Below are positions 1 to 64,000 of a stretch of DNA of 64,000 nucleotides, in pieces. The DNA comes from Bacteroidales bacterium (lineage in GTDB: Bacteria > Bacteroidota > Bacteroidia > Bacteroidales > UBA932). The position numbers and the translations under genes are program-made. The stretch is from positions 62,001 through 126,000 of the forward strand of contig JAFRXO010000011.1 in assembly GCA_017443465.1 (NCBI GenBank), in the 5' to 3' direction. The number at the start of each line of letters is the position of its first letter. Position 1 is the stretch's first letter. The notes under the pieces are model-generated. The model was given only the letters and a program-made list of their open reading frames with translations, did no database searches and was not told the origin of the DNA.

Positions 1-2142
1 ATGCAGAGCACTCTGACATCGGATATACAGTACTTGCCAGGTGTCGGGCCGAGGAGGGCACAACTGTTGCGTTCCGAACTCGGGCTCGGGACATTCGGTG
101 ACCTGATCCATTTCTACCCCTTCCGCTACATCGACAGAAGTACCATCCAGCCAATCGCTTCCGTGCTGCCTGACATGGCATATGTCCAGATACTGGGCAC
201 CGTGATGCGCGCCGACCTTATAGCGAAGGGCGGAGTCCAGGTAACCCCGGACAAGTCCCAGCGGGCCACCAGGCTCAGCGTCTGGGTAAGCGACCAGAGC
301 GGCTCCATCGAACTGGTGTTTTTCCGCGGCATCAAGTACACATATGAAAAACTCCGTCCGGGGCAGACGTTTCTGTTCTTCGGGAAGCCTACCGCATTCG
401 GGAACAGGCTGAACATAGTTCACCCTGAGATAGACACTCCGCCTGCAGCAGGGGCCGACACCTCCGGCCTCACCATGACAGGAGTATACACCTCGACCGA
501 GAAACTGAAAAACGCAGGAGTCACAGGAAAAGTGATGCTGAGAATGGTGAGTGCAGCCCTGAATTCCTGCATGGACAGCATACAGGAGACCCTCCCTGAG
601 TACATATTGAAGGAAAAAGGTCTCGTGCCTCTTAAATATGCCCTGAGGAACATACACTTCCCATCCGATGCCCAGGCCCTCTCAAAGGCCAGGTACAGGC
701 TGAAATTCGAAGAGCTGTTCTACCTTCAGCTCTCCCTGGTGCGCCAGAAATATGTCCGCAGCCGCTCCGAGAACGGGATAGTGATGCCTCATGTGGGAGA
801 AGCGTTCCACAAATGCTACAATGCCCTTCCATATGAACTCACAGGAGCGCAGAAAAGGGTCATTAAGGAAATCAGGGCCGACATGGCCAGCGGACACCAG
901 ATGAACCGCCTGCTCCAGGGAGACGTCGGTTCCGGGAAGACCATGGTTGCGGTCCTATGCTCACTGATAGCCATAGGAAACGGCTGGCAATCCTGCATCA
1001 TGGCCCCCACGGAAGTGCTTGCACAACAGCACTATAAGAACATATGCCGCTATCTGGAACCGACCGGATGCAAATGCGCCCTTCTCACCGGAAGCACTCC
1101 GGCAAAAGAGAGGAACTCAATCCTCGCCGGACTGCAAGACGGATCGATAGGCATATGCATAGGCACCCATGCCCTCATCGAAGACAGCGTGATCTTCCAC
1201 AGGCTCGGGCTCGCCGTCATTGACGAACAGCACCGGTTCGGGGTTGAACAGAGATCCCGGCTGTGGGCCAAATCGCCTGGACAGACTCTCCCTCATGTGC
1301 TAGTAATGACCGCCACCCCTATCCCGCGCACACTGGCCATGACCCTTTACGGGGACCTGGACGTCTCCGTAATCGATGAAATGCCCCCGGGAAGGAAACC
1401 GGTCGAAACCCTTCAGATTGCAGCCAACCGCCGCCCTGAACTCTACAGGTTCATGAAAAAGCAGATCGAGGCCGGCAGACAGGTATTCGTGGTGTACCCT
1501 CTGATCTTCGAAAGCGAGAAAGTCGATTACCAGAATCTGGAGCAAGGATGGCAGGACATTGTCGACCACTTCCCTTTCCCTCCTTACAAAGTCGCCATAG
1601 TGCATGGAAAGCAGACCTCAGAGGAAAAGACCTTCAACATGGACGCTTTCTCCTCGGGAAGGGCCAACATCCTGGTTTCCACCACTGTGGTCGAAGTGGG
1701 AGTCGATGTCCCGAATGCCTCTGTGATGGTGATCGAGAATGCCGAACGCTTCGGCCTTTCAACCCTCCACCAGCTTCGTGGAAGGGTCGGAAGAGGTGCC
1801 GAAAAATCCTTCTGCATCCTGGTCAAGGGACAGAAGGTCTCCGCAGAATCGAGCAAGAGGCTGGACCTGATGTGCTCTACGGAAAACGGATTCGAACTCG
1901 CAGAGGAAGACATGAAGATGAGGGGCCCCGGAGACTTGGAGGGGACCCAGCAGAGCGGGCTTCCGATCGAACTCAAGATAGCTTCCCTCGCCCATGACGG
2001 GACGATCCTGACCCTGGCCAGGGAATACGCCGTCAGCATCCTGGAGAGGGATCCTTCCCTTTCCCGAAGTGAAAACGCCATCCTGGTACTGGTCCTTCAA
2101 GGGGGAAAATACGACATCAAGAACTTCAGCAAAATCTCCTGA
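1..2142 (+). CDS. recG: ATP-dependent DNA helicase RecG
   Basis: RecG remodels stalled replication forks and Holliday junctions in the cytoplasm. The 713-residue length fits the family. An N-terminal wedge/OB region is followed by a helicase core with Walker A GDVGSGKT at residues 307-314 and the Walker B variant DEQH at 408-411. The second helicase lobe carries the arginine-rich RGRVGRG motif. The frame is open from base 1, where an ATG lies, and the N-terminal sequence looks complete, but an upstream in-frame start outside the window cannot be excluded. It is followed after 2 bases by the WYL regulator, so the two are probably co-transcribed. Function is confident from the motifs; the exact start is less so. 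Confidence 0.95.
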   Translation: MQSTLTSDIQYLPGVGPRRAQLLRSELGLGTFGDLIHFYPFRYIDRSTIQPIASVLPDMAYVQILGTVMRADLIAKGGVQVTPDKSQRATRLSVWVSDQSGSIELVFFRGIKYTYEKLRPGQTFLFFGKPTAFGNRLNIVHPEIDTPPAAGADTSGLTMTGVYTSTEKLKNAGVTGKVMLRMVSAALNSCMDSIQETLPEYILKEKGLVPLKYALRNIHFPSDAQALSKARYRLKFEELFYLQLSLVRQKYVRSRSENGIVMPHVGEAFHKCYNALPYELTGAQKRVIKEIRADMASGHQMNRLLQGDVGSGKTMVAVLCSLIAIGNGWQSCIMAPTEVLAQQHYKNICRYLEPTGCKCALLTGSTPAKERNSILAGLQDGSIGICIGTHALIEDSVIFHRLGLAVIDEQHRFGVEQRSRLWAKSPGQTLPHVLVMTATPIPRTLAMTLYGDLDVSVIDEMPPGRKPVETLQIAANRRPELYRFMKKQIEAGRQVFVVYPLIFESEKVDYQNLEQGWQDIVDHFPFPPYKVAIVHGKQTSEEKTFNMDAFSSGRANILVSTTVVEVGVDVPNASVMVIENAERFGLSTLHQLRGRVGRGAEKSFCILVKGQKVSAESSKRLDLMCSTENGFELAEEDMKMRGPGDLEGTQQSGLPIELKIASLAHDGTILTLAREYAVSILERDPSLSRSENAILVLVLQGGKYDIKNFSKIS

Positions 2143-2144
2143 GA

Positions 2145-3128
2145 ATGGTAGCCGGACTCATACAGAAATACGTCTGGCTCATCCAGACATTCACAGACGC
2201 CCAGGAGCGGGGTCTGACCCTGGAGGAACTGCAGGACAAATGGGAGGACAATTTCGGGGCGGCACTTGCCAGGAGTTCCTTCGTCAACCACAGGAAGGCC
2301 ATTGAAGACATATTCGGAATCAGCATCCTGTGCGACCGCTCCACCAACCGCTATTACCTCCCCTTCGCGGACGATGCCATCGACATGGATTCCTCCCAGC
2401 GCTGGCTCGTCAACACATTCACAGTCAGCAATATGCTATCCCTTGGAAGGGAGAGGCTCAGCGGCAGGGTCTCGGTAGAGGACATCCCTTCCGGACACAA
2501 GTTCCTCCCCACGGTGATGGACGCTATGCTGAAGTCTTCCACCCTCGAGATCGAATACGGCAAATACACCCAGGACATGACAAGCACGAGGCACGTCCAT
2601 CCATATGCCGTGAAAGAATATGCAAAGCGCTGGTATCTGGTCGGTTACAGCGAGGAGCGGGACTCCGTAAGGGTTTACAGCCTTGACAGGATCAGGCGTG
2701 CGTCCCTCACCGGCACATCATTCAAACTTCCGAAGGGTTTCGACGTGGACCAGCTGTTCGAGAACAGTTTCGGCATATACATACCTTCCCCGGACCAGAC
2801 TCCGGTTACCATCCGCTTCCAGGCCGACGGGATCGATGCCGGCTATCTCAGGGACCTGCCTCTTCACCGTGCCCAACGTGAGATCGATCCGCAGAATCAC
2901 ATATTCCGGATGAAGGTAGTTCCCACTCCGGACCTTTACATGCAACTCTGCAGCTTTGCAGGGCGCATACGGATCCTCTCCCCTGACTCGGTCCGCGAAA
3001 ATATGCTCGCACTCCTCGAAAAGGGATGCGCGATGAATGGAAACAACAACGAAAACAAGGATACATATGAAAAAATCAATTCTTCTGATGACAGCAGCAG
3101 CGATCATGGCTATGGGATGCAAGAATGA
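2145..3128 (+). CDS. WYL-domain transcriptional regulator
   Basis: A predicted DNA-binding regulator of 327 residues. The first ~70 residues look like a helix-turn-helix region, and the middle holds a WYL domain with the hallmark KRWYLVGYSEE near residue 165 followed by the typical VYSLDRI strand. WYL domains generally sense small ligands or nucleic acid; the ligand here is unknown. It starts 2 bases after recG. The reading frame runs 62 bases past the start of the next gene, and the last ~30 residues are hydrophilic, asparagine/serine-rich and look like read-through into the next gene's signal peptide. This is either a real overlapping tail or a sign of a lost stop codon. Confidence 0.8.
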   Translation: MVAGLIQKYVWLIQTFTDAQERGLTLEELQDKWEDNFGAALARSSFVNHRKAIEDIFGISILCDRSTNRYYLPFADDAIDMDSSQRWLVNTFTVSNMLSLGRERLSGRVSVEDIPSGHKFLPTVMDAMLKSSTLEIEYGKYTQDMTSTRHVHPYAVKEYAKRWYLVGYSEERDSVRVYSLDRIRRASLTGTSFKLPKGFDVDQLFENSFGIYIPSPDQTPVTIRFQADGIDAGYLRDLPLHRAQREIDPQNHIFRMKVVPTPDLYMQLCSFAGRIRILSPDSVRENMLALLEKGCAMNGNNNENKDTYEKINSSDDSSSDHGYGMQE

Positions 3129-5385: not shown

Positions 5386-5397
5386 CAATAATCTCAT

Positions 5398-6456
5398 ATG
5401 ACCATGAAAATCAGGACTGCCACCATAGGCACCAATTTCATAGTAGACTCCTTCATCAAAGGAGCCAGGATGGACGAGCGCTTCGACTACGCTGCAGTCT
5501 ATTCCCGCAATCAGGAAACCGCCTCGGCATTCGCCTCAAAATACGGCGCCCGCAGAACCTTCACTTCGCTTCAGGAACTGGCGGAAAGTCCTGACATTGA
5601 TGCAGTTTACATTGCTTCACCCAACATATGCCACCCCTCTCATGCGATCATGATGATGGATCACGGCAAGCATGTCATATGCGAAAAGCCGATGGCCCCC
5701 TCCCCTTCAGAAGCCATATCCATGATAGAGGCTTCACGGAGGAACGGGGTTGCATTGATGGAAGCGATGAAGACTACCCTCCTGCCGAATTTCAGGAATG
5801 TAAAAGATGCGCTGGGGCGCATAGGGAAAGTCAGGTGCTACAACTCCTCATTCTGCCAGTATTCTTCCAGATTCGCGGCATTCCTCCAGGGCGGCCCTGT
5901 CGCCAATGTGTTCAATCCTGCAATGAAGGGAGGATCGCTTCGTGACTTGGGAGTCTATTGCATAGCCCCGATGGTCCACCTTTTCGGTGTCCCGTGGGAG
6001 GGAGAGTACACCATGGAGAAGATGCTGGACTGCGTTTCAGTCACTCCGATGATGATGCTCCCCGGAGGCTGCAATGATCCCTCCTGCGCGATCGACGTCC
6101 AGGGATCGATGGTCGTTTCATATCCCGGGATGCAGGCTACAATTACCTGGTCCAAGGCCTGTGACGGGGCATGGGGCACCCAGATCCTGGGTGAAGACGG
6201 CACGATAGAGATCACCAAGACTTCCACTATGATTGCTCCCAGGATCAGGCTCCGCACCGGAGTCGGTGATGCAGGACTGAGGAAAGGGACCGACGAGTGG
6301 GAAGACCTCAGTACTCCGACCCCGGATTTCATGTACCCAGAAGTCAAGGAGTTCTTCGACCTTATAGAATCAGGAAAGACAGAGTCCGCAATCAATACCC
6401 ACCAGCGCAGTCTGGACACTGCCAGGATCGTGGACAGCCTTTACAGGGTCGGCTGA
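5398..6456 (+). CDS. Gfo/Idh/MocA-family oxidoreductase
   Basis: A NAD(P)-dependent sugar or polyol dehydrogenase of 352 residues. The N-terminal Rossmann fold is followed by the family hallmark CEKPMAP near residue 98 and a C-terminal alpha/beta domain. The usual glycine-rich GxGxxG reads IGTNFIVDSF here, a known variant in some subfamilies, so cofactor binding may differ. ATG codons lie at 5398 (within CATATG) and 5404; the first is chosen but both are possible. It follows the S9 peptidase by 12 bases and is 3 bases from the next gene, which suggests one transcription unit. The substrate is unknown. Confidence 0.87.
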   Translation: MTMKIRTATIGTNFIVDSFIKGARMDERFDYAAVYSRNQETASAFASKYGARRTFTSLQELAESPDIDAVYIASPNICHPSHAIMMMDHGKHVICEKPMAPSPSEAISMIEASRRNGVALMEAMKTTLLPNFRNVKDALGRIGKVRCYNSSFCQYSSRFAAFLQGGPVANVFNPAMKGGSLRDLGVYCIAPMVHLFGVPWEGEYTMEKMLDCVSVTPMMMLPGGCNDPSCAIDVQGSMVVSYPGMQATITWSKACDGAWGTQILGEDGTIEITKTSTMIAPRIRLRTGVGDAGLRKGTDEWEDLSTPTPDFMYPEVKEFFDLIESGKTESAINTHQRSLDTARIVDSLYRVG

Positions 6457-6459
6457 CAT

Positions 6460-8490
6460 ATGTTCCATCCCTTCCTGTACATCCTCTCTGTGTCATTATT
6501 CCTGAATCTCCAGCCTCAGGACACCACCGTTTCAGGCGGCGTCCTGAAGGAGTCATCCGTCAAGGGCCTCCGTTCAGCCGCGTCAGCATATGCCGGAGAC
6601 AGGGTCGCTGCGGATGAACTGCGCAGAGCCACTGACCTTTCGGATGCCGTAAGGGTGTTCGGGGGGCTCCAGGTGAAGGATTACGGGGGCGTGGGTGGAC
6701 TGAAAACAGTGAACATACGCAGCCTGGGAAGCGAGTTTACAGGGGTATTCATCGACGGGATCCAGGTGTCGAATGCCCAGAATATGCAGGTGGACCTGGG
6801 GCGATTCGGAGCCGATGAATTCTCCTCGGCGGCCCTGTCATATGGCGAGGGTTCTAATTCTGTTGGAGCCGCCGTTCCCGGGGCCAGGGAGGAAGCGGGT
6901 GGAAACAATCTGATGCTGACAAGCGGTGAGCCTCGCTTTTTCCCGGGCAGGAAGGACACATGGTCTGTGCGCCTGAGGGGAGGCTCTTTCGGAACTGTCT
7001 CGCCCTCAATGGCATGGAATCACAGGGCAGGCAACCTGACCAGCCGGCTATCAGCGGAATGGATAAAGACGGACGGACGCTACCGCTTCCACGACACCGG
7101 TGCCGGCTACGACACCACAATGGTGCGGGAGAACAGCGACCTGCAGAGTTTCCGGGCATCATGGAGGCTTTCAGGAAAGTCCGGGAACAACTCGTGGCGC
7201 ACACTAGCGCATTTCTATGATTCAGAGAGGGGCCTGCCCGGCCCGGTAGTGAGAAGGGCATCGGCGGCCATAACTACAAAGGACCGCCAGCGTGACAGGG
7301 ACATTTTCGTACAGTGGAGCGGAGAGCATCGCTTCAGCAACTCCAGCATAATAGGCGCAAAGGCAAGATATTCATATGCTTACACGAATTACCGCACTAA
7401 TCCATATGAAGATCCCGCTGCCATGCCGGTGGACAACCGCTTCGCCCTAAGCACTGCATATCTTTCCCTGTCCCATGTGTTTACACCTGTCCAGTGGTGG
7501 AAAGGGACACTCGCCGCAGACTATGAGTTCAGCTATCTTCACTCCAATCAGAGGAGTTTCGTATTCCCGAGGAGGCACAGCATATTCCTGCTCTGGGGTA
7601 ACTCCTTCTATTTCAAGAACCTTCAAATAGATTTGAAGCTCCCTGCACAATTTGCGTTCGACAAACTGGGAGCAGAGGGACCTGCCGGTTTCCCGTCCGT
7701 GGAGAAGGACCGCTCCGCCTTTACCCCGTCAATCTCGGCGATCTGGCTCCCCTCAAGGCTGAAACACCTGACTTTCAACGGTTTCATCCGCCGCTCCTTT
7801 AGGATGCCTTCCTTCAATGACCTCTACTACACCTTCGTCGGCAATTCCTCGCTCAAGCCTGAGAATGCAATGCAATACGACTTGGGATTCCGGCATGGTT
7901 TCGAACCAGTCCGGGGACTGGAATCTGAATTCAAGGCTGATTTCTACTATAACATGGTTACGGACAAGATCATCGCCGTCCCGACAGCGAACCAGTTCCG
8001 CTGGACGATGTACAACATAGGGCGGGTACATGTCCAGGGAATGGACCTGAAATGGAGCCTTAACTGGGACAAGAAGGCCCAGGATGCCCTCAAGGCGTCA
8101 CTTACCATGCGTTACAGTTTCCAGCGCTCCAGAGACTTCTCTACTCCGGGAAGCGTCACATGGAAAGGCCAGATCCCTTACATCCCGATGCACAGCGGAT
8201 CGGCCACGGGAACAGTCGGCTGGAAGGACTGGGACCTCAGCCTCAACTATGTAGCCAGCTCGACCAGGTGGAGTTCCTCAGCGAACATCCCGGATTACAG
8301 GACAGCCCCCTTCCAGACCCTGGATGCATGGATCTCCAGGACTTTCAAGGAAAAAGGTTCCGCAGGGCGGCCGGGGGAACTGACCCTCAGGCTCGCACTG
8401 CGGAACCTTATGGATGAGAAGTACGAAGTGGTCCAGGGCTACCCGATGCCGGGATTCAATCTGCTGGCCACAATTGAATACTCCTTCTGA
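6460..8490 (+). CDS. TonB-dependent outer membrane receptor, BtuB-like architecture
   Basis: An outer membrane active transporter of 676 residues. After a hydrophobic leader there is a plug domain (residues ~45-150, with VNIRSLGSEFTGVFIDGIQV) and a 22-strand-type barrel ending in the expected terminal aromatic residue (IEYSF). It lacks the N-terminal carboxypeptidase-like domain of SusC proteins, and no SusD follows, so it is a simple receptor of the BtuB/vitamin or siderophore type rather than a SusC. The ATG overlaps a CATATG, 3 bases after the oxidoreductase. No cobalamin riboswitch is visible before it. The beta-propeller lipoprotein at 14856 might be its surface partner, but the genes are separated. 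The ligand is uncertain. Confidence 0.85.
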   Translation: MFHPFLYILSVSLFLNLQPQDTTVSGGVLKESSVKGLRSAASAYAGDRVAADELRRATDLSDAVRVFGGLQVKDYGGVGGLKTVNIRSLGSEFTGVFIDGIQVSNAQNMQVDLGRFGADEFSSAALSYGEGSNSVGAAVPGAREEAGGNNLMLTSGEPRFFPGRKDTWSVRLRGGSFGTVSPSMAWNHRAGNLTSRLSAEWIKTDGRYRFHDTGAGYDTTMVRENSDLQSFRASWRLSGKSGNNSWRTLAHFYDSERGLPGPVVRRASAAITTKDRQRDRDIFVQWSGEHRFSNSSIIGAKARYSYAYTNYRTNPYEDPAAMPVDNRFALSTAYLSLSHVFTPVQWWKGTLAADYEFSYLHSNQRSFVFPRRHSIFLLWGNSFYFKNLQIDLKLPAQFAFDKLGAEGPAGFPSVEKDRSAFTPSISAIWLPSRLKHLTFNGFIRRSFRMPSFNDLYYTFVGNSSLKPENAMQYDLGFRHGFEPVRGLESEFKADFYYNMVTDKIIAVPTANQFRWTMYNIGRVHVQGMDLKWSLNWDKKAQDALKASLTMRYSFQRSRDFSTPGSVTWKGQIPYIPMHSGSATGTVGWKDWDLSLNYVASSTRWSSSANIPDYRTAPFQTLDAWISRTFKEKGSAGRPGELTLRLALRNLMDEKYEVVQGYPMPGFNLLATIEYSF

Positions 8491-10548: not shown

Positions 10549-10585
10549 GATACTATGATAAATTGAACTGAAATTATCATTTGAT

Positions 10586-12637: not shown

Positions 12638-12664
12638 GGTTATTAATCTTAGTTAGGTTAGACT

Positions 12665-21426: not shown

Positions 21427-24297
21427 ATGGCAGAAATCAGATTAAACAAGATTTTCAAAAAGTACAACATCGGACTTCAGACTCTGGTGGATTTCCTGAA
21501 CAGCAAAGGAGCCGGAATAGAAGCCAACCCGAATCTCAAGATATCGGATTCATGGATTCCCGACATCGAGAAGCAGTTCGGCAAGGACCTGGCGCTTAAG
21601 GAAGCATCCGAGAAGGTGGACATCAAACTCACCGAGATTCTCGAGAAGAACACCCGCAAACAGGAAGAGGAGACAGAAGAAGAACCTGAAAGGGAGACCA
21701 TCATCAAGAGCACCAGCCTGATGCATGACAGGAAACCCAAGTCCCAGGCGTCTGCCCAGCAGGAAAGCCCTGTTGAATCCGCACCTGAACCTGCTCCGGA
21801 GAAGGCTCCGGAACCGCAGCAGCCCCAGGAGACCGCACCGGAACCAGCCGAGCCCAAGCAGGAAACACCTGCAGAAGAGAAGGTCGAAATCCCGGCTTCC
21901 AAGGAAGAAATCCCCGAGCCGGTTAAAGAACCTGAAATCGCAGAACATCCTGAAGGCCAGGTGGAAAGCGAGACCTCCAAGACCCCGGAGGAAAGCGTTC
22001 CCGAAGCCGAAGAGGTTAATGCCCCTGCAACGGTGGAACCCGAGCCCCAGCCCGAGGAGGAGCCTGAATCAAGTGCTCCGCTGATGGAGGAGGATGAGGA
22101 AGCCGCACCCCAGGAGGCTGACGCCTCACAGGCCAATGTCCCAGGCCTGAAAGTCCTCGGAAAGATCGACGTTTCCCAGTTCGAAAGGAAGAGCAAGAAG
22201 CGTGAGAGAATCACCAAGGGCTCCCAGAAAGTGGATGTCGAGAAGGTAGGAAAGACTGCCGAGAACACCAACAGGCGCGACAAGAAGGCAGCTCCGGCTC
22301 CTGCAGCCGCTGCTGGAAAAGGCAAGAGAAGCCGCGCCCGCGACCGCTTCAAGCCCGCGATGACCGAGGCCGAGCAGGAAGAGATGCAGAAAGAGATCCA
22401 GAAGCAGGTCAAGGAGACATATGCGCGCATGAACGAAACCAAGACGAAGAACGCGTTCGGCGCCAAGTACCGCAAGGAGAAGAGAGAGGCTGCAGCCGCC
22501 AGGACCATGGAGGAATCGGCAGAGCTCGCAGCGATGAAGAAGACCCTGAAGGTGACCGAGTTCCTTACCGTAAACGACCTCGCGACCCTCATGGACAACA
22601 CTCCGGTAGTGAAGGTGATCTCAGCCTGCATGTCACTCGGACTTATGGTTTCCATCAACCAGAGGCTCGATGCCGAGACCATCGTCCTGGTCGCCGAGGA
22701 ATTCGGCTACAAGGTCGAATTCGTAACGGCCGAACTTACTGAAGAAATCAACAAAGATGATGTCGCGGACGATGAGAAGGACCTCGTGGAGAGGCCTCCG
22801 ATCATTACCGTCATGGGTCATGTAGACCACGGTAAGACTTCATTGCTCGACTACATCCGCAAGTCCAACGTCATCGCAGGAGAGGCCGGAGGTATCACCC
22901 AGCACATCGGTGCCTACACTGTCGTCCTCCCCAGCGGAAAGAGGATCACTTTCCTCGACACCCCTGGACATGAGGCGTTTACAGCCATGCGTGCCCGTGG
23001 AGCCCAGCTCACCGACCTTGCAATCATCATCATCGCCGCAGACGACGCGGTCATGCCGCAGACTATCGAGGCCATCAACCACGCACAGGCTGCCGGAGTC
23101 CCGATGGTGTTCGCAATCAACAAGATAGACAAGCCCGGCGCTAATGCCGACAGGATCTACCAGCAGCTTTCCCAGATGAACATCCTGACGGAGAACTGGG
23201 GAGGTAAATACCAGTGTGAGGAAATTTCCGCGAAGAAGGGCCTCAACGTGGACAAACTTCTCGATAAAGTCCTCCTTGAGACCGACCTCCTTGAACTTAA
23301 GGCCAATCCCAAGAGGATAGCCCAGGGTGCCGTCATAGAATCCTCCCTCGACAAGGGACGCGGATTCCTGGCAACCGTCCTCGTCCAGAACGGAACCCTC
23401 AGGACCGGAGACATGATCCTTTCCGGAATCTATTTCGGACGCGTCAAGGCCATGTTCAACGAACGTGGGCAGAAGGTTGACGAGGCAGGTCCCTCCACCC
23501 CTGTTTCGGTACTCGGACTCAACGGCGCTCCCTCCGCAGGTGACAAGTTCAATGTCATGCTCGATGAGAAGGAAGCCAAGTCCATCGCGAACAAGAGGGA
23601 ACAGCTCATCCGCATCCAGGGTATCAAGACCCAGAAGCATATGACTCTCGAGGAGATAGGCCGCCGTATCGCAATCGGCAACTTCAAGGAACTCAACACC
23701 ATCGTCAAGGGCGATGTGGACGGATCCGTGGAGGCTATGGCCGACTCTCTCATCAAGCTCTCGACCGAGCAGGTCAAGGTCAACGTCATCCACAAAGCCG
23801 TCGGAGCCATCACCGAATCCGATGTCCTGCTTGCAGAGGCATCCGATGCCATCATCATCGGATTCCAGGTACGCCCGACTACGGAAGCCAAGAAGACTGC
23901 CGAACAGGAAGGCATCGAAATCCGTCTCTACTCTGTCATCTACGACGCCATCAACGAAGTCAAGGACGGTATCGAAGGTATGCTGGAGCCTATCAAGAAG
24001 GAGGAGGTCACTGCGACTGTCGAAATCAAGCAGACATTCCACATCTCCAAGGTCGGCACGATCGCCGGCTGCCTCGTCAGGGACGGAAAGATCTCCAAAG
24101 ATGCACAGGTCAGGGTTATCCGCGACGGTATCGTCGTACACACCGGACCGCTCGCTTCCCTCAAGAGGGTCAAGGACGATGTCAAGGAGGTTTCCGCCGG
24201 AATGGAATGCGGCGTCGCCCTCCAGTCCTACAACGACATCCTCCCGGGAGATATACTAGAGGCATTCAAGATAGTGGAAATCAAGCAGACCCTGTAA
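21427..24297 (+). CDS. infB: Translation initiation factor IF-2
   Basis: GTPase that places initiator tRNA on the 30S subunit. 956 residues. A short N-terminal IF2 domain is followed by a long proline/glutamate-rich low-complexity linker (about residues 100-245) and a basic stretch. The G domain begins with GHVDHGKT at 464-471, then DTPGHEAF and NKIDKPGA, and domains II-IV complete the protein. The long acidic linker is a variable feature of the family. Last gene of the rimP-nusA-infB set, 12 bases before tmk. Confidence 0.97.
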
Positions 24298-24309: not shown

Positions 24310-24999
24310 ATGCTCGTAGTAATGGAAGGCCTGGACGGCTCAGGCAAGTCCACACAGGTCAGGAAACTGAGGGAACACCTGGAGAGTATTTCCGGGACAG
24401 TGGAATACATCCACTTCCCCCGCTACGACGCTCCGGTGTATGGAGAGCTCATAAGCCGTTTCCTCAGAGGTGATTACGGTTCCAATGAGCTGGTTCATCC
24501 GCAGTTGGTGGCACTTCTCTACGCCGAGGACAGGCACGGAGCTGCGCCTCAGATGAATGCCGCCCTTTCCCGCGGGGAGACTGTCCTCCTGGACAGGTAC
24601 GTCTATTCCAATGTAGCATACCAGTGCGCCAAGGTGGACAATGTGGATGAAAGGGAAGAACTCAGGGAATGGATCCTGAACACCGAGTTCGGGGAATTCG
24701 GACTTCCCCGTCCGGACCTGAACATATTCCTCGACGTCCCCATCGGCTTCGTGGAAGCAAAGCTTACCTCCAGCCGTACCGGAGCCGACCGGAGCTATCT
24801 GGAAGGGCACAGGGACATCCATGAGGCAGATCTCGGATTCCAGAAGAAGGTGAGGGATGTCTATCTGCGCCAGGCTTCCCTGGATCCTAACTTCATCCGG
24901 ATAGACTGTTCTTCTCCCGAAGGGGAGATGCTTCCTCCTGAGGAAATCTCTTCGAAGGTCAGGGCGGCTGTAGATGCTTTCCTTGCCTCCGGGAAATAA
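24310..24999 (+). CDS. tmk: Thymidylate kinase
   Basis: Phosphorylates dTMP to dTDP for DNA synthesis. 229 residues. The P-loop GLDGSGKST is at residues 7-15, DRYVYSNVAYQ matches the DR(Y/H) substrate motif, and a LID region with SSRTGADRSYLEG follows. The product is somewhat longer than enterobacterial Tmk but normal for Bacteroidota. It is 12 bases after infB and probably in the same transcript. Confidence 0.92.
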   Translation: MLVVMEGLDGSGKSTQVRKLREHLESISGTVEYIHFPRYDAPVYGELISRFLRGDYGSNELVHPQLVALLYAEDRHGAAPQMNAALSRGETVLLDRYVYSNVAYQCAKVDNVDEREELREWILNTEFGEFGLPRPDLNIFLDVPIGFVEAKLTSSRTGADRSYLEGHRDIHEADLGFQKKVRDVYLRQASLDPNFIRIDCSSPEGEMLPPEEISSKVRAAVDAFLASGK

Positions 25000-25006
25000 A
25001 TTTCAT

Positions 25007-26239
25007 ATGAACATAGCATACCACCGTATCAGACGTACCGCAGCAATCCTGACAGGGCTTGTTTTCTTTTTCGCGGGCGCGCTGAAGCTCATGGACCCAA
25101 CGGGCGCAGGGCTGGTGGTAGCAGACTATCTTTCTTTTTTCCACCTTGGATTCCTGTCTCCGCTTTCCAAAGCGATTGGCGTAGGGATGGCCTTTCTCGA
25201 GACAGCAGTCGGTGCGGCGCTGATACTCGGAGTGTGGAAAAAAGTCGTTGCGATAATCACCTCGGTGCTGATCGCCATATTCACGATCATCACCCTGATC
25301 CTGGCCATATTCAATCCCCAGATGGACTGCGGCTGCTTCGGTGAAGCCATCCACCTCAGCCATATGCAGACATTCCTGAAGAACCTGGGGCTCTGCCTTG
25401 TCGCCGCCCTGGCCTTCCTCCCCTTCCGGGAGCTGGGAGGCAACAGGACCCGCAAGCTCGTCACATTCCCGATAGTCCTCGTGCTTATCGCTCTGTTTAC
25501 CATCCACCAGCTTTTCTCCCTGCCGCTCATAGACTTCACTTCATTCAGGCCGGGAACCGAACTGTCTGCCGGATGGACGGAAGACCTGGAAAATCTGGAT
25601 GTCATGCCTCCTGCTCAATTCATATACGAGAAGGACGGCCAGAGACAGACCTTCTCCCTGGAAAACCTCCCGGATTCCACATGGACATTCGTCGATGCGA
25701 TCGCACCTGAGATTCCCACGAAGGCAGATAATGACGGTTTCGTAAACCTTCCCTTCCGGGATGCGGAAGGCAACTCGCGTGACTCCCTGGCAATCACCGG
25801 AAAAGTCTTCGCGATTTCGGTTACACAGCCTTCCAAACTCAGCCCTGCACAATGGCAGAAAGCAGCATCAGCCCTTTCAGCTGCATCGGACAACGGGTTC
25901 ACTCCCCTGCTCCTGGCTGCAGCTACACCTGCATCCCTCGAAGAGATGATCAAGCCCATGTCCCTTCAAAACGGCGCCGAAGCCATCCTGCTGATGAACG
26001 CATACAGCGCGGACTACAGGACGCTCATCTCCCTGAACCGCTCCAACGGCGGCGCGACATGGTTCGATGACGGACAGCTCATATGCAAATGGCCTGCAGG
26101 GAAACTGCCCTCATCTTCCGCCCTCAGGCAAGCTGCGGCGGACAATCCGCTCGAGCATATGATTTCATATGACACCCGCGGCCGCATCGCATCCCAGGCA
26201 TGGCTCATTGCCGTTTTCGCGGTAATGATACTCTTCTGA
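25007..26239 (+). CDS. DoxX / BT_3928-like membrane protein
   Basis: A 410-residue inner membrane protein. ATG 25007, inside a CATATG and 7 bases after tmk, gives MNIAYHRIRRTAAILTG; an upstream in-frame start would overlap tmk. The first ~180 residues hold four membrane helices of the DoxX/MauE type (FFFAGALKLMDPTGAGLVVADYL) with a DCGCFG segment that may bind a thiol partner or metal. A soluble region of ~200 residues follows, and a hydrophobic C-terminal helix (AWLIAVFAVMILF). Its function is unknown; DoxX relatives are linked to redox or thiol balance. Confidence 0.75.
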   Translation: MNIAYHRIRRTAAILTGLVFFFAGALKLMDPTGAGLVVADYLSFFHLGFLSPLSKAIGVGMAFLETAVGAALILGVWKKVVAIITSVLIAIFTIITLILAIFNPQMDCGCFGEAIHLSHMQTFLKNLGLCLVAALAFLPFRELGGNRTRKLVTFPIVLVLIALFTIHQLFSLPLIDFTSFRPGTELSAGWTEDLENLDVMPPAQFIYEKDGQRQTFSLENLPDSTWTFVDAIAPEIPTKADNDGFVNLPFRDAEGNSRDSLAITGKVFAISVTQPSKLSPAQWQKAASALSAASDNGFTPLLLAAATPASLEEMIKPMSLQNGAEAILLMNAYSADYRTLISLNRSNGGATWFDDGQLICKWPAGKLPSSSALRQAAADNPLEHMISYDTRGRIASQAWLIAVFAVMILF

Positions 26240-27653: not shown

Positions 27654-27697
27654 GGCGCAAGCCATTATCGGAAAACACCTTAAAAACTCAAACACAT

Positions 27698-28441
27698 ATG
27701 AACAAAAAATTACTGTTCACAGCTGCAACTGCAGCAGGGCTTCTGGTGGCTTCCATCGCTGAAGCACAGACCAATTTCCAGACCTTCTATGATTTCAGCC
27801 GCGAGCATTTCACCACGACTCTTGAAGGATTCTACGGTGATGACTGGGGTAACACCTTCTTCTTCATCGATTACGATTTCAACGGAAAGAACGGCGACGG
27901 AGCGAAGAGTCTCGCAAGCGGAAGCTATTTCGAGATCGCACGCTGCCTGAATTTCTGGCAGGATTCCGCCCTGGGTGCCCTCAGTGCACATGTTGAGTAT
28001 AACGGTGGAGTAGGTTTCCCGAGCCAGAACTTCCTCTTCGGTGTTGACTACTTCGTTCACAATGCCAATTTCAGCAACACATTCAACTTCAAGCTGCTCT
28101 ACAAGACTTTCAGCAAGGGAACCACCAGCGACCTCCCGCTCCAGTTCACCTTCGTCTGGGGCATGCAGGACATCTTCGGAGTCAAAGGCCTGCGCTTCAG
28201 CGGCTTTGCAGATTTCTGGGGTGAGGACGTAGTTGCATTCGCAGAGGATCCCGATAGCGACAAATTCCTCAAGGAAGGACACTTCGTATTCCTCTCCGAG
28301 CCACAGCTCTGGTACAACATCGGACAGCACTTCGGCTGCAAGAATTTCAACATCGGCGGCGAGGTCGAGTTCTCTTACAATTTCGCCGGATACGACGGAT
28401 TCAAGGTCCGCCCCTGCATCGGTACCAAGTGGGTCTTCTAA
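27698..28441 (+). CDS. DUF5020 / Tsx-like outer membrane nucleoside channel
   Basis: A 247-residue protein with a signal peptide ending AEAQ and alternating beta-strand pattern (TTTLEGFYGDDWGNTFFFID, FSYNFAGYDGFKVRPCIGTKWVF), ending in a phenylalanine as outer membrane barrels do. DUF5020 proteins resemble Tsx, the nucleoside-specific porin. Its place between two nucleobase permeases, 44 bases after the first and 17 before the second, supports a role as the outer membrane entry pore of the same uptake route. The start lies in a CATATG. Confidence 0.85.
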   Translation: MNKKLLFTAATAAGLLVASIAEAQTNFQTFYDFSREHFTTTLEGFYGDDWGNTFFFIDYDFNGKNGDGAKSLASGSYFEIARCLNFWQDSALGALSAHVEYNGGVGFPSQNFLFGVDYFVHNANFSNTFNFKLLYKTFSKGTTSDLPLQFTFVWGMQDIFGVKGLRFSGFADFWGEDVVAFAEDPDSDKFLKEGHFVFLSEPQLWYNIGQHFGCKNFNIGGEVEFSYNFAGYDGFKVRPCIGTKWVF

Positions 28442-33714: not shown

Positions 33715-33750
33715 TTTTACCGGGATTCGTATTATAACGTTGACAATGCC

Positions 33751-36764: not shown

Positions 36765-36766
36765 CG

Positions 36767-38662: not shown

Positions 38663-38691
38663 TATATCTCAACCACTTAAACCACTTAAAC

Positions 38692-45973: not shown

Positions 45974-45980
45974 TCCCCAT

Positions 45981-47393
45981 ATGCAACAGCTCTGCGACTT
46001 ATACAGGAAATTAACCGGAACTGATGCGGTAGCCGAGCCGCTTCCCTCCTCCGGCAGCCACAGGAGATATTTCAGGCTCAGCGGTCCATCCGGCCAGATG
46101 ATCGGAGTAATCGGGACCTCGGTAGACGAGAACAAGGCTTTCACAGGCCTTGACCGGCACTTCGCCTCCAAGGGGCTCAGGGTCCCGAAGGTCCTGGCAA
46201 TCAGTGAGGACCACACCCGCTACCTCCAGGAAGATTTAGGCAACGTCCTGCTGTTCGACGCAGTAGCCGAGGGACGGGAGAACGGCCGGTACTCCCCCGA
46301 AGAAAGGGAGCTCCTGATCAAGACCATATCATCCCTTCCGGCCCTCCAGTTCAAAGGGGCGGAAGGACTCGACTGGAACATATGCTGGCCCGAGCCGGCT
46401 TTCGACGGCCGTCTGGTAATGTTCGACCTGAACTACTTCAAGTACTGTTTCCTGAAAGCTACCGGATTGGAATTCGATGAGATCCGCCTGCAGGACGACT
46501 TCGAAAAACTCAGGGACGACCTCCTGTGCGATGACACCGACACATTCATGTACAGGGATTTCCAGTCCAGGAATGTAATGGTCAAGGACGGGGAGCCATG
46601 GTTCATCGACTTCCAGGGCGGAAGACGCGGACCGATCTGGTACGACGTCGCATCCTTCATATGGCAGGCAAGGGCGCGTTACCCCGAAGACCTTCGCGAA
46701 GAGATGGTCGCCGCCTACCTTGAGGCCCTCAAGCCATATATGGACATCGACCCGGCCCGGTTCCGCGAGCGTCTGCGCATATTCGTCCTGTTCCGCACCC
46801 TGCAGGTACTCGGAGCATATGGTTTCCGCGGCTATTTCGAAAAGAAGCCCCATTTCATCGCAAGCGTCCCATATGCGCTCGGAAACCTGAGGAGGCTGCT
46901 CAGAACTCCGTTCGAAAGGTATCCCTATCTCAACGGCCTGCTGCTCCTTCTGGCGAATATGCCTGAATTCAACACTATGGCTGACGACAAGAGACTGGAG
47001 GTCAGGATATTCAGCTTCGCCTACAAGAAAGGTATCCCTGCCGACACATCGGGAAACGGAGGCGGCTACGTCTTCGACTGCAGGGCCATAAACAATCCCG
47101 GGAAATTCGAACGGTTCCGCAAGTTTACTGGGCTCGATCCGGAAGTAATTGAATACCTTGAAGATGACGGCGGAGTCCTCACCTTCCTGGATCATGTGTA
47201 CGCCCTGGTGGACGCCCATGCAAAGAGATTCATTGAAAGGAAGTTCACCCACCTTCAGGTGTGCATGGGATGCACCGGAGGACAGCACCGCTCAGTGTAC
47301 TGCGCCGAGCACCTCGCTGCCCACCTGGCATCGAAGTTCGACATCAAGGTAGTTGTAAACCACCGTGAACTCGGTATTGAAAAGATACTCTGA
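45981..47393 (+). CDS. AmgK-like sugar kinase fused to RapZ C-terminal domain
   Basis: A 470-residue two-domain protein. Residues ~1-320 are an aminoglycoside-phosphotransferase-fold kinase with the catalytic loop FMYRDFQSRNVMV and the metal aspartate in WFIDFQGGRRGPIWYD, close to AmgK, the anomeric MurNAc/GlcNAc kinase. Residues ~340-470 match the RapZ C-terminal domain (VFDCRAINNPG, VCMGCTGGQHRSVYCAEHLA), which in E. coli senses glucosamine-6-phosphate. The AmgK product would feed the MurU-like enzyme at 43637. The fusion suggests sensing and phosphorylation of amino sugars are linked. The start lies in a CATATG. Confidence 0.83.
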   Translation: MQQLCDLYRKLTGTDAVAEPLPSSGSHRRYFRLSGPSGQMIGVIGTSVDENKAFTGLDRHFASKGLRVPKVLAISEDHTRYLQEDLGNVLLFDAVAEGRENGRYSPEERELLIKTISSLPALQFKGAEGLDWNICWPEPAFDGRLVMFDLNYFKYCFLKATGLEFDEIRLQDDFEKLRDDLLCDDTDTFMYRDFQSRNVMVKDGEPWFIDFQGGRRGPIWYDVASFIWQARARYPEDLREEMVAAYLEALKPYMDIDPARFRERLRIFVLFRTLQVLGAYGFRGYFEKKPHFIASVPYALGNLRRLLRTPFERYPYLNGLLLLLANMPEFNTMADDKRLEVRIFSFAYKKGIPADTSGNGGGYVFDCRAINNPGKFERFRKFTGLDPEVIEYLEDDGGVLTFLDHVYALVDAHAKRFIERKFTHLQVCMGCTGGQHRSVYCAEHLAAHLASKFDIKVVVNHRELGIEKIL

Positions 47394-47489: not shown

Positions 47490-47564
47490 GGGAGCATAGC
47501 TCAGTCGGTTCAGAGCGTCTGCCTTACAAGCAGAGGGTCGGCGGTTCGAATCCGTCTGCTCCCA
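47490..47564 (+). tRNA. tRNA-Val (anticodon TAC)
   Basis: 75 bases with all arms. The acceptor GGGAGCA pairs with TGCTCCC, the D arm has GCTCAGTCGGTT, the anticodon stem TCTGC/GCAGA encloses the loop CTTACAA with anticodon TAC, and the T arm has GGTTCGAATCC. CCA is not encoded. Confidence 0.95.
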
Positions 47565-47598
47565 CCCTCTATTTAATCCCCACTATATACATTTATGC

Positions 47599-51001: not shown

Positions 51002-51024
51002 GGGACTCTCTGAGCCTTTGATGG

Positions 51025-51096
51025 TACCTCCGCAGGGATTCGAACCCTGATCGTCAGAACCGGAATCTGAAATCCTATCCATTAGACTACAGAGGC
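51025..51096 (-). tRNA. tRNA-Arg (anticodon CCG)
   Basis: 72 bases on the minus strand. The acceptor GCCTCTG pairs with CGGAGGT (one G-T end pair), the anticodon stem TCAGA/TCTGA encloses TTCCGGT with anticodon CCG, and the T arm has GGGTTCGAATCCC. CC follows the discriminator but no full CCA. Confidence 0.92.
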
Positions 51097-57660: not shown

Positions 57661-57687
57661 CAAAAATAAATAATTGCTGTATATTTG
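57661..57687. promoter_or_regulatory. Divergent promoter boxes of lysR-type and M16 genes
   Basis: Minus-strand TATTTTTG (57661-57668) and plus-strand TATATTTG (57680-57687) fit TAnnTTTG and lie 11 bases apart in the 84-bp gap. Confidence 0.55.
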
Positions 57688-57727
57688 CATACTTTTTTGC
57701 ACAATTATTTCATTATCTGATTCTAAT

Positions 57728-60550
57728 ATGAAAAGAAGCTTAATCTTGGTTGTTTCCCTCCTGCTCGCAGGCGTGACACTCTTTGCCCAGGGACAGCCCC
57801 AGGTCCTTCCGAACGATCCTGAAGTACGTCAGGGTAAGCTCGAAAACGGGATGACCTACTACATCCGTCACAATGCACTGCCTGAAAAGAGGGCAGAGTT
57901 CTATCTTGCCACCAACGTCGGTGCAATCCAGGAGACTCCCGACCAGGACGGTCTTGCCCACTTCCTGGAGCATATGTGCTTCAATGGGACGAAGAATTTC
58001 CCCGGAAAGGGAATCCTTGACTGGCTCCAGAGCATCGGTGCTTCCTTCGGAGGAAATGTAAATGCATCCACCGGTTTCGAAGAGACCCAGTACATGCTCA
58101 ATAACATTCCCCTTGTCCGCCAGAGCGTTATCGACACATGTATCCTCATCCTCCACGACTACTCCCACTTCGTAACCAACGACCCGAAGGAGATAGACCT
58201 TGAGCGCCCTGTGATCCTCGAGGAGCGCCGCGCCAGGCGCAATGCCAGCTGGAGGACCTTCGAGCGTTCCCTTCCCTACTACTATGCAGACAGTAAATAT
58301 GCTACCTGCACCCTTATCGGAAGCGAAGAGAACCTCAAGACCTTCAAGCCCGAAAGCCTCTGGAACTTCTACAAGACCTGGTACACTCCTGACAAGCAGG
58401 CTATCATAGTAGTCGGAGACGTAGATGTGGATTATGTAGAGAATGTACTCAAGAAGACTTTCGCCGACATCCCCGCAGCCGAGAACCCCGCCGAGAAGGC
58501 CTACATCAAGGTCCCTGGATGTGCTGAGCCCAGGATCGGAATCATCACCGACCCGGAAACCACAGCCTCCTCCATCGAGATGCTCTGGCTGAGCGAAGCC
58601 ATGCCGGAAATCTACAACAGCACAATCGTAGGTGAGCTCACAGACATCATGAAGGACATCATCAGCCAGGTAATGGCCGAGCGCTTCGAGGACATCACCG
58701 CCAAGCCGGATGCACCGTTCCTTTCCGGTTCCTTCGGCATCGGGAACCTCTGCGAGACCACCGAGGCCTCCATGGCCGATGTAAGGCTCTCACCCGACAA
58801 CATCCTCGCCGGCTTTGAAGCTTTCTACACTGAAATCGAGAAAATGCGCCGCTTCGGCCTCGGAGACGCTGAGGTAGAACGTGCCAAGAGCAACATCCTC
58901 TCTTACTATGAGTCCGCTGCTAAGAAGGCTGAGACCCGCAAGAACCCCGAGTTCGTGCGCCCGCTCATCCAGAACTTCTTCGACAGCTACGCATATATGG
59001 ATCCTAACACCGAGTACGAACTGGTCCAGCAGATCATGCCTATGATCAATGCCCAGGCCGTCAACCAGGCAGCCCAGACATGCGTCACCGACTCCAACCT
59101 CGTAGTCATATATTCGGCTCCCGAGAAGGCCGGCATGAATCACCCGACCCAGGCCCAGCTCCTGGAAATCATCAACAAGGTAAAGGCATCTGACATCAAG
59201 GCCAATGTCGAAGAAGCAGTTGTCACCGAACTCCTCGACCCGTCAGCCCTTAAGGGCTCCAAGGTAAAGAAGACCGCAGACGCCATCTACGGTGCCAAGG
59301 AAATCGCTCTCAAGAACGGAGTTACCGTTCTCCTTTATCCTTCTGACAGGGAGAAAGACAGGATTTCCTTCACACTCGAGAAGAAGGGCGGCCTTTCCAT
59401 CCTTCCCGTAGAGGACATGCCCAGCTTCGATGAGAACATCATGAGTCTCTTCGAGAGGAACCAGGGTGTTTCCAAGTTCAGCAGCACAGACCTCACGAAG
59501 GCCCTTTCCGGAAAGAACGTTTCCGTCAATCCTTACATCAGTGAACTGTTCCACGGAATCTCCGGAAACAGCACTGTGAAAGACCTGGAGACCGCATTCC
59601 AGCTGATGTATCTCTACTTCACGGATCCCCGCTTCGACCAGAACGAGTATGACACTGCCATCAAGTCGCTCAACGCTATCCTCCCGAACTTCATGAGCAC
59701 TCCGACCTATCCGCTCTACAAGGCCCTTTACAAGACAGCCTACGGCGACAATCCCCGCAAGCTTTTCGTCTCACCCGAGATCGTTGAAAAGGCAAATCTC
59801 CAGACCATTGAAAAGGACTACCGCAAGCTCTTCAGCGATGCTGCCGGTGCAGTCGCCATAATTGTCGGAGATTTCAAGGTAGATGAGATCACTCCGCTAG
59901 TAGTGAAGTATTTCGGTTCCCTGCCCAAGGGTAAGAAAGCCACTGACTGGGTAGATCCCAAGACCGACGTCCTTCCGGGTGCCCGCACCAATGACTTCAC
60001 GACCGACATGGAGACCCCGATGACCACCGTCATCGACATCTACTCCGCCGATGCGGAGTATTCCGAGAAACTCCGTGCAGCCATCAGTGCAGTCGATTAC
60101 ATCCTCAACATGAGGTACGTCACTTCCCTGCGTGAGGAAGCAGGCGGCACCTATGGTGCAAGCGTCAGCGCCTCCCTGGAAAGGATCCCGACTCCTAAGG
60201 CAGAAGTCCAGATTTCCTTCAACAGCAAGCCGGCTTCAGCCGACCAGCTCCGTGAACTTGCAGCCAAGGGCTTCAAGGAACTTGCTGAGCAGGGTCCGAC
60301 CGATTCCGAGTTCGACATGACGATCAAGAATCTCCAGAAGAACATCCCGGAGAGCCGCCAGCGCAATGCTTACTGGACCTCTGCTATCCGCACCAACTAC
60401 TACTATGGTGAGGACCGCGACCAGGCCTGGGAGGCTGCCGTGAATGCCCTCACCGCCGATGACATCAAGGCTGCCGCCGCCCTCGTCTATGGTGCAGGCA
60501 ACTTCGTCGAAATCGTCCAGAGACCCGGCTCCACCTCCGAGAAAGAGTAG
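57728..60550 (+). CDS. M16-family zinc metallopeptidase
   Basis: A 940-residue secreted pitrilysin/insulinase-type protease. ATG 57728 gives a signal peptide ending TLFAQ; the longer frame begins in the promoter. The inverted zinc motif HFLEH is at residues 78-82, with a downstream glutamate in ILEERRAR. Both M16 halves are present in one chain: the N-terminal active half and a C-terminal inactive half (SLREEAGGTYGASVSASLER). Its high-expression-like codon use and few CATATG sites differ from its neighbours. Likely digests peptides in the periplasm. Confidence 0.93.
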   Translation: MKRSLILVVSLLLAGVTLFAQGQPQVLPNDPEVRQGKLENGMTYYIRHNALPEKRAEFYLATNVGAIQETPDQDGLAHFLEHMCFNGTKNFPGKGILDWLQSIGASFGGNVNASTGFEETQYMLNNIPLVRQSVIDTCILILHDYSHFVTNDPKEIDLERPVILEERRARRNASWRTFERSLPYYYADSKYATCTLIGSEENLKTFKPESLWNFYKTWYTPDKQAIIVVGDVDVDYVENVLKKTFADIPAAENPAEKAYIKVPGCAEPRIGIITDPETTASSIEMLWLSEAMPEIYNSTIVGELTDIMKDIISQVMAERFEDITAKPDAPFLSGSFGIGNLCETTEASMADVRLSPDNILAGFEAFYTEIEKMRRFGLGDAEVERAKSNILSYYESAAKKAETRKNPEFVRPLIQNFFDSYAYMDPNTEYELVQQIMPMINAQAVNQAAQTCVTDSNLVVIYSAPEKAGMNHPTQAQLLEIINKVKASDIKANVEEAVVTELLDPSALKGSKVKKTADAIYGAKEIALKNGVTVLLYPSDREKDRISFTLEKKGGLSILPVEDMPSFDENIMSLFERNQGVSKFSSTDLTKALSGKNVSVNPYISELFHGISGNSTVKDLETAFQLMYLYFTDPRFDQNEYDTAIKSLNAILPNFMSTPTYPLYKALYKTAYGDNPRKLFVSPEIVEKANLQTIEKDYRKLFSDAAGAVAIIVGDFKVDEITPLVVKYFGSLPKGKKATDWVDPKTDVLPGARTNDFTTDMETPMTTVIDIYSADAEYSEKLRAAISAVDYILNMRYVTSLREEAGGTYGASVSASLERIPTPKAEVQISFNSKPASADQLRELAAKGFKELAEQGPTDSEFDMTIKNLQKNIPESRQRNAYWTSAIRTNYYYGEDRDQAWEAAVNALTADDIKAAAALVYGAGNFVEIVQRPGSTSEKE

Positions 60551-60697: not shown

Positions 60698-60899
60698 CTC
60701 TCCCCCGGACCGGGACGAGCCTCATACGTCACCGGCAGGGCAGGACTTCGCACCGCCGGCTCGACGGCTGACTCGGAACTTTTATCCGCCTTACGGCGTA
60801 TAACGTTCCTCAGACACTCGCCGTCGCGGGACACCGGCTCCACTCGTCCTGCCGGGAACCTGCCGTCTCCAAATCGGCTCGCCCCGGTCCGGGGGAGAG
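60698..60899 (-). repeat. Two-copy structured element, copy 2
   Basis: 202 bp, reversed relative to copy 1 at 33751. The terminal inverted repeats are perfect over 17 bp (CTCTCCCCCGGACCGGG). The internal nested stems of copy 1 are all kept. Two stem pairs changed on both sides: T-A to G-C in the GACGxCAGG stem and A-T to G-C at the outer end of the xCCGGC stem. The apical loop changed from GTCA to GTAA within an unchanged CGCC/GGCG stem. It is flanked by hairpin units H3 and H4 on one side. Confidence 0.8.
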
Positions 60900-61014
60900 G
60901 CAACTGAAATTCTCATTCTGTGGACCGTTGAAGTAGCTTCAAATACCACGATTGCGCACAATTTATATTTTATTTTTTGTAGATTTACGGTCAGAACACT
61001 AATCACTTACAACC

Positions 61015-63714: not shown

Positions 63715-63746
63715 ATCTTTTCTGTTTTAGCTTAGTTTCGTGGCTG

Positions 63747-63754
63747 CAAATGTA
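63747..63754 (-). promoter_or_regulatory. Minus-7 box of the ferredoxin gene
   Basis: TACATTTG on the minus strand, 33 bases before the start codon, fits TAnnTTTG. Confidence 0.55.
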
Positions 63755-63820
63755 GTCAATATATTCGAAATCTCAAGTTTTGGCGGAAAATTTGCTATAT
63801 TGTCATTGAGATTTACAATA

Positions 63821-64000
63821 ATGGTACCATTGAGAAAAATATGGCTTGCAATCGTCGCCTTCATGGCCCTGGGAATATGCTCATATGCCCAGACGGACCT
63901 CGGCGGCGGCATACGCATCGACAAGACAGTGCATGACTTCGGGGACGTACTCCTGTCAGACGGCCCACTGGGATGCGACTTCACCGTAACGAACACAGGC
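63821..64000 (+). CDS. DUF1573-domain secreted protein, 5' part only
   Basis: The first 60 codons of a gene that runs out of the window. Start ATG 63821 gives a hydrophobic signal peptide ending ICSYAQ, then KTVHDFGDVLLSDGPL, the typical opening of a DUF1573 immunoglobulin-like domain. Members are common secreted proteins of Bacteroidota with unclear roles. No stop is seen before the window ends. Confidence 0.8.
   Translation, partial: MVPLRKIWLAIVAFMALGICSYAQTDLGGGIRIDKTVHDFGDVLLSDGPLGCDFTVTNTG

Follow-up and report, generated by a model that had tools for sequence, protein, structure and literature searches.

The hexanucleotide palindrome CATATG is heavily over-used in a 64,000-nucleotide stretch of contig JAFRXO010000011.1 from a Bacteroidales bacterium (positions 62,001 to 126,000 of the forward strand; hereafter the window), where 128 copies, or 2.0 per kb, are spread over coding frames, start codons and intergenic DNA. 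The genome that holds the window, G000 (81 contigs, 2.65 Mb, 96.4% completeness), contains 4,230 copies in 2,645,555 bases (1.6 per kb, about 1,600 per Mb), against 79 of the reversed control GTATAC. The observation made in the initial annotation is confirmed and is stronger than first described, while the interpretation offered there is partly supported. We tentatively regard CATATG in G000 as a lineage-specific highly iterated palindrome (HIP) near saturation, maintained by a CATATG-specific factor that may bias repair or gene conversion, a reading in which we place rather less than even confidence.

Excess of CATATG in reading frames, gaps and start codons

The initial annotation had put the number of sites in the window at about 125 to 130, with roughly 15 expected from composition, and had located single copies at coordinates that agree with ours to within a few bases (1041, 3064, 5395, 6457, 15890, 25004, 26816, 26825, 27695 and 45978). 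Base composition predicts 13.0 copies by our calculation, and an order-3 Markov model, whose expectation is inflated by the motif itself, predicts 50.4; the excess persists under both. CATATG is the top hexamer of the window (z 10.9), followed by a word that overlaps it (5.8), and the next palindrome stands at 3.9. When the 2,080 strand-merged hexamers of a first G000 sample (299,806 bases) were ranked, CATATG came first (z 39.9), and ranks 2 to 5 were all taken by words that overlap it, rather than by the unrelated AT-centred hexamers whose equal excess had been named as counterevidence. An extended motif was rejected, the flanks of CATATG being weak (G 0.36 at -1).

A simple open reading frame (ORF) rule served for gene calling, so that errors are to be expected in some starts and small genes, and ten G000 contigs that read as N contribute no counts. 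The relatives used for comparison are 78 loci found by InfB (L074 to L152 minus L146); L073, from isolate RUG14879, was omitted as identical to contig 69 of the sister genome G423. Three low-occupancy pieces of G000 (L268, L010 and L018) were retained in the occupancy totals, nearest-site distance bins, peptide-order counts and window gene table, and were omitted from the intergenic, one-base odds, sister retention, codon identity, gap-spacing, enlarged-sample shuffle, three-codon, start-codon, near-match and third-position G+C (GC3) counts.

A synonymous codon shuffle that keeps the proteins and the pooled codon usage predicted 86 coding sites in the first sample (84 to 87 in repeats), where 449 were observed. 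All three frames are in excess, with 279 sites against 31.5 expected in the Tyr frame (CA-TAT-G), 63 against 33.6 in the His-Met frame (CAT-ATG) and 107 against 20.5 in the Ile-Cys/Trp frame (C-ATA-TG). The excess persists in an enlarged G000 sample used for later counts (1,151 against 223, or 5.2-fold) and in G423 (199 against 45). The earlier statement that the bias does not depend on reading frame holds for these frames, as it does for start codons and gene-free gaps.

Codon, codon-pair or base-composition bias might be held to produce such numbers, and two congeners, G211 and G115, do combine a milder CATATG excess (2.1-fold and 2.4-fold) with an excess of ATATAT. This explanation has to contend with the excess in three frames and, as described below, in gaps and at start codons, as well as with a dependency that spans three codons. 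In G000, where TAT is followed by a codon that starts with G, the codon before it ends in CA (xCA) at 686 of 765 occurrences; with any other following codon the figure is 166 of 574. The corresponding fractions in the relatives are 160/669 and 398/1,202. Since the xCA share before TAT depends on the third codon, codon-pair bias is ruled out, a judgment made from this dependency rather than from a full codon-pair-preserving shuffle. Furthermore, the share of compatible positions spelled CATATG (occupancy) is 0.47 and 0.52 in low-GC3 genes (n=19 and n=84) and 0.79 in genes with GC3 >0.65 (n=845), the opposite of a composition effect. We regard the probability of bias of this kind as negligible.

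A coding-only effect was also considered (early counts were 0.55 per kb, intergenic, versus 1.72 per kb, and a first strict set held 10 copies in 10.2 kb with 3.2 expected) and was rejected by a strictly intergenic recount. In 27.0 kb of such DNA, G000 carries 31 copies, against 6.2 expected from a first-order Markov model (5.0-fold) or 8.3 from base composition, and all three gap classes contribute, namely tandem (18, with 3.0 expected), divergent (6, with 1.8 expected) and convergent (7, with 1.2 expected); G423 has 20 copies against 2.7, and the relatives have 10 against 16.2. Raising the minimum gene length from 60 to 100 residues changes the totals to 38 against 6.7 in G000 and 17 against 2.7 in G423. 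An earlier gap count of 44, 20 and 7 (tandem, divergent and convergent) had included three bases per gene, so that start codons account for 26 of its tandem and 14 of its divergent sites. CAT directly precedes 63 of 411 ATG starts in G000; the figures are 7 of 106 for G423 and 6 of 797 for the relatives. The excess in gaps and at starts points to a pressure on the DNA beyond reading frames and, together with the frame data, supports the proposal of the initial annotation that CATATG resembles HIP1 of cyanobacteria and reflects an action on the DNA itself.

Amino acid order is shifted in the same direction. His-Met occurs 187 times in G000 against 108 expected from amino-acid frequencies (1.7-fold), while Met-His occurs 105 times; Ile-[Cys/Trp] preceded by almost any residue is found 435 times against 319 expected (310 in reverse order), and [APST]-Tyr-[ADEGV] 968 times against 803 (837 in reverse order). 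For His-Met, Ile and Tyr, respectively, the forward ratios of the relatives are 1.00, 0.85 and 0.99 and their reverse ratios 0.80, 1.20 and 1.03. Fisher tests comparing the two orders, with both sisters set against the relatives, gave p values of 0.0075, 3e-15 and 0.00016; the Ile test partly reflects the relatives, because their own reverse ratio deviates.

Distribution within the genus and retention between sisters

G000 was assigned to its genus through its relatives, which are uncultured Bacteroidales or Bacteroidia, several of them Candidatus Cryptobacteroides and many derived from ruminants. The genus was sampled by taking 400 genomes, G000 among them, evenly from a larger group; in this sample only G000 and G423 (RUG14879; 79% complete, 3,353 copies in 2.1 Mb) reach 1.6 CATATG per kb. 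The third, G211, has 2,028 copies in 2.8 Mb, and the remaining 397 have between 12 and 1,602. G423 is also the closest to G000 by RecG (95%, with all others at or below 73% among the matches listed). Most simply, the trait would have arisen on the branch to this pair, before their split.

The locus L146 (36 copies in 22.9 kb) was considered as a third CATATG lineage and rejected as part of G211, with which it shares identical search matches. Seven pieces of G211, L146 among them, average 0.80 CATATG per kb, and xCA stands about equally often before TAC (28/40) and TAT (78/116), so that the excess in this genome is mostly a codon-context effect. Locally, L146 and another G211 piece, L214, are high (2.7-fold and 3.9-fold, with an ATAT excess), as are the G115 pieces L217 and L220 (3.1- to 3.7-fold, again with an ATAT excess). 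The mild excess in G211 and G115 is possibly a weaker or decaying form of the same bias.

A survey of 106 loci of relatives for other HIPs found none standing out; the highest z, 6.8, belongs to L214 and is itself that of CATATG. For 12 pieces of G000 and its sister the CATATG z values run from 6.6 to 19.6, overlapping the range of the relatives at one sister piece, L208. Separately, TCCGGA is mildly over-used in many samples of the genus, at about 1.3 to 3.4 times the codon-shuffle expectation (for example in L130, L144 and the G254 pieces L230 to L232), and several samples, G000 among them, show strong avoidance of GTCGAC.

In 47.6 kb of alignment between G000 and G423 (86% identity), 0.82 of CATATG sites are conserved, which ranks first of the 110 hexamers with at least 100 occurrences (the mean of all hexamers is 0.46). 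Where both proteins permit the site, 76 positions are on in both sisters, 3 and 3 are on in one, and 11 are on in neither, giving a retention of 76/79. Where the protein of the other sister is non-permissive, one sister has the site at 13 and 11 positions and does not have it at 5 and 8. The sisters spell [APST]-Tyr with the same two codons in 52 of 57 compatible cases, compared to 49 of 86 non-compatible ones.

Saturation, spacing and possible causes

Of the positions where synonymous codons can spell CATATG, 1,154 of 1,590 do so in G000 (73%) and 338 of 466 in G423, against 273 of 2,271 in the 78 relatives' loci (12%). The odds against one-base deviations in synonymous contexts, which with palindrome symmetry cover all nine deviation types, range from 7.1 to 48.4 in G000 and G423 pooled. 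Occupancy is flat with the distance to the nearest other site (0.79, 0.76, 0.75, 0.74 and 0.77 at 0 to 30, 30 to 100, 100 to 200, 200 to 400 and 400 to 800 bp), gaps between sites are exponential (coefficient of variation 1.06; 2.5% exceed 2 kb, with 2.3% expected), and no helical phasing of the sites was detected (resultant 0.028). A role that needs one site per stretch (uptake, strand discrimination and even packing are examples) would be expected to give diminishing returns beside another site, and none are seen, as a per-site conversion process predicts.

The reading that we favor is that a pressure on double-stranded DNA would read six base pairs and handle each site independently. The lineage would carry a DNA-binding or nicking factor specific for CATATG that biases mismatch repair or gene conversion, such that a CATATG strand or allele prevails over a partner that differs from it by one base. 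In the long run, most positions permitted by protein or regulation would become CATATG, and some amino acids would change to fit. We infer both that biased repair or conversion, and not selection, lies behind the pattern and that the lineage has a dedicated factor. A more specific form of the idea, in which a methylation-independent, sequence-specific "writer" gained once before the split rewrites one-off hexamers to CATATG and so reshapes codons and proteins, strikes us as conceivable yet somewhat doubtful.

Several observations weigh against this reading. Biased conversion and weak selection reach the same equilibrium in static sequence, and sequence for that reason cannot separate them; nor was a candidate gene for the factor identified, the whole gene content of the pair not having been compared for presence or absence. 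The intergenic classes are small, as with the six sites in divergent gaps, and the convergent gaps of G423 fall from 3 copies to 0 with the 100-residue gene limit, while the start-codon excess is weaker in G423 than in G000. His-Met is moderately significant against its own reverse (p 0.03 in G000 alone, 0.0075 with its sister). One-base neighbors are not uniformly depleted, their observed/expected ratios being 0.49 to 0.74 for position 2, 0.77 to 1.17 for position 3 and 1.14 to 1.55 for position 1. Occupancy drops to 0.52, 0.36 and 0.07 beyond 800 bp from the nearest site, in bins that still include the low-occupancy contigs. Finally, xCA-TAT of G000 is retained in G423 in 47 of 50 cases in CATATG context, but the few control cases outside this context show retention as well (9 of 11), so that the comparison does not distinguish them.

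Alternatively, weak selection might keep each CATATG as a binding site of an abundant DNA-organizing or nucleoid protein, without biased repair. CATATG is site-specific, strand-symmetric, genome-wide and kept between sisters, all of which would suit such a protein, and odds of 7 to 48 would correspond to a scaled selection of about 2 to 4, small enough for a large bacterial population. A packing or looping role, however, predicts what the random spacing, lack of helical phasing and lack of diminishing return do not provide, and the start codons, where sites are frequent (63/411), would be an odd place for a packing site. We regard this alternative as a close rival, somewhat less probable than the favored reading and compatible with the same data.

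Another possible source is a DNA uptake sequence, favored as CATATG-bearing fragments by competent cells and spread by recombination, which the initial annotation had suggested and which the clade-specific, near-saturating presence of CATATG in coding and intergenic DNA alike would fit. As described in PMC1939737, the uptake sequences of Pasteurellaceae and Neisseriaceae likewise multiply one short word genome-wide, possibly by molecular drive, but they are non-palindromic and evenly spaced and show a graded excess of near matches. CATATG has neither the even spacing nor the graded near-match excess: its core is no more than a 6-bp palindrome, its flanks are weak and its spacing random, its occupancy is flat beside other sites, and its near matches are not uniformly enriched. 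The suggestion is disfavored, and we consider it very improbable.

Very-short-patch repair by Vsr shifts oligonucleotide abundance in E. coli and is a precedent for a sequence-specific mismatch enzyme that changes word counts. Vsr restores C:G within a cytosine-methylase site, whereas all positions of CATATG are favored here. Vsr (PF03852) matches 110 of the 400 genus genomes; G000 is without a match and G423 is absent from the genomes listed as matching, and Vsr was rejected as the source. CATATG is also the recognition site of NdeI and of its methyltransferase. To our knowledge, the origin of HIP1 has long been an open question.

Elhai 2015 (PMC4390886) describes HIP1 (GCGATCGC) and the alternate HIPs of cyanobacteria, which occur sporadically, as short palindromes hugely over-used at about 500 to 2,500 per Mb (about 0.5 to 2.5 per kb); a cognate DNA methyltransferase is general there, with exceptions, and the model of that paper requires one. 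CATATG has the abundance features of a HIP (top word, 1,600 per Mb) but, for the five families searched, not the methyltransferase feature. It further differs from HIP1 in being an AT-centred 6-mer of Bacteroidota, for which site-autonomous synonymous occupancy and shifted peptide counts were measured here. Restriction sites tend toward avoidance, according to PMC4687349; the six bases of the NdeI site are instead multiplied here, and no methyltransferase was found.

The last point bears on a methylation-linked HIP, in which an orphan CATATG methyltransferase, as proposed in the initial annotation, would act with methyl-directed repair and would have to belong to another family or lie outside the contigs. 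Neither G000 nor G423 has a match to the DNA methyltransferase families PF01555, PF02086, PF00145 and PF02384, and PF07669 has below-cut-off matches only (two in G000, one in G423); those of G000 are PrmC, which is above its NCBIfam cut-off, and a TrmN-like protein, whose best match is below cut-off. In contrast, 12 of the 13 other congeners searched have at least one over-cut-off match to these families (G012 has none; G314 was searched with PF01555 and PF02086 only). MT-A70 (PF05063) has no match in the pair, but controls were equally silent, so that this search is uninformative on presence. The orphan methyltransferase is thus unsupported in the five families. On the other side, cyanobacteria with a frequent alternate HIP carry a methyltransferase specific for it, according to PMC4390886; the density of CATATG falls within the range given there, and the G000 and G423 assemblies are incomplete (96% and 79%). 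On balance, we consider a methylation-linked origin improbable.

Sites and genes of the window and significance

For recG, an identity filter left 25 of 28 other relatives usable. The CATATG sites of this gene are as follows.

179..184, Ala-Tyr-Val (nCA TAT G): on in G423; on in 0 of 25 relatives, with a compatible peptide in 10 of 25
341..346, Thr-Tyr-Glu: on in G423; on in 0 of 25 relatives, compatible in 13 of 25
830..835 (codon 277), Pro-Tyr-Glu: on in both sisters; compatible in 25 of 25 relatives, on in 1
1041..1046, Asn-Ile-Cys (C-ATA-TG): no site in G423 (Asn-Ile-Ser); 24 of 25 relatives incompatible, 1 compatible and off
1152..1157, Gly-Ile-Cys (C-ATA-TG): on in both sisters; different peptide in 25 of 25 relatives

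The last site accompanies an amino-acid difference, because all 25 relatives carry another peptide. CAT-ATG sites at starts, genes with few or notable compatible positions, and tRNA genes in the window are the following.

3064..3069: CAT-ATG at the probable start codon of an S9 peptidase gene
5395..5400: CAT-ATG whose ATG is the start codon of the GFO/IDH/MocA gene 5398..6456
6457..6462: CAT-ATG whose ATG starts the TonB-receptor gene 6460..8490
25004..25009: CAT-ATG whose ATG is probably a start codon, within ORF 24974..26239
27695..27700: CAT-ATG whose ATG starts ORF 27698..28441
45978..45983: CAT-ATG whose ATG starts ORF 45981..47393
21427..24297, plus strand: infB, poor in sites because just 2 positions are synonymously compatible, both CATATG
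57674..60550, plus strand: M16 peptidase gene, low occupancy, 1 of 5 compatible positions occupied
47490-47566, plus strand: tRNA-Val (tac)
51022-51096, minus strand: tRNA-Arg (ccg)

The initial annotation had listed infB, the M16 gene and a first set of heparinase genes as sparse in sites. This stands for the M16 gene, which may be a recent arrival, and for the three genes at 8494-14725, taken as that set, in which 5 of 9 allowed sites are occupied; infB is ordinary, both of its allowed sites being filled. The gene at 8494-10548, the one of the three that was searched, has no Pfam match at 1e-10, so that the heparinase name is unconfirmed. In three equal-sized ORFs at 34869-40590, taken as the second heparinase set, allowed sites are filled in 6/6, 4/6 and 4/7 cases.

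An interspersed repeat of 200 bp lies at 33746-33948 (plus strand) and 60703-60902 (minus strand) of the window, in copies 90% alike, and is present in other contigs of G000 and in G423. Its predicted fold is one long hairpin (-113.7 kcal/mol, z -7.3), and it has no Rfam match above the gathering score; it could be a repeat like a miniature inverted-repeat transposable element or a structured-RNA repeat.

Elsewhere in the assembly, the compatible positions spelled CATATG amount to 8% of 24 in L268 (contig C33, 15 kb) and 9% of 11 in L010 (contig C8, 6.5 kb). The composition of both is not extreme, and C33 carries an apparent carA-carB and pyrG, recognized by eye. L268 and L010 are probably mis-binned contigs from another related species, and CATATG occupancy may also serve to flag foreign genes and mis-binned contigs.

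No report of CATATG over-use was found in the literature, as judged by title and abstract start among the matches listed, and the papers that use the phrase "highly iterated palindrom" are mostly cyanobacterial by title. The sister pair shows a HIP without a detected methyltransferase, gained sharply on one branch of a genus with hundreds of sequenced species. The excess is similar in coding (5.2-fold) and gene-free DNA (5.0-fold), without a spacing effect and with near all-or-none recognition. A comparison of G000 and G423 with their close relatives makes the question of selection, methylation or repair bias testable.

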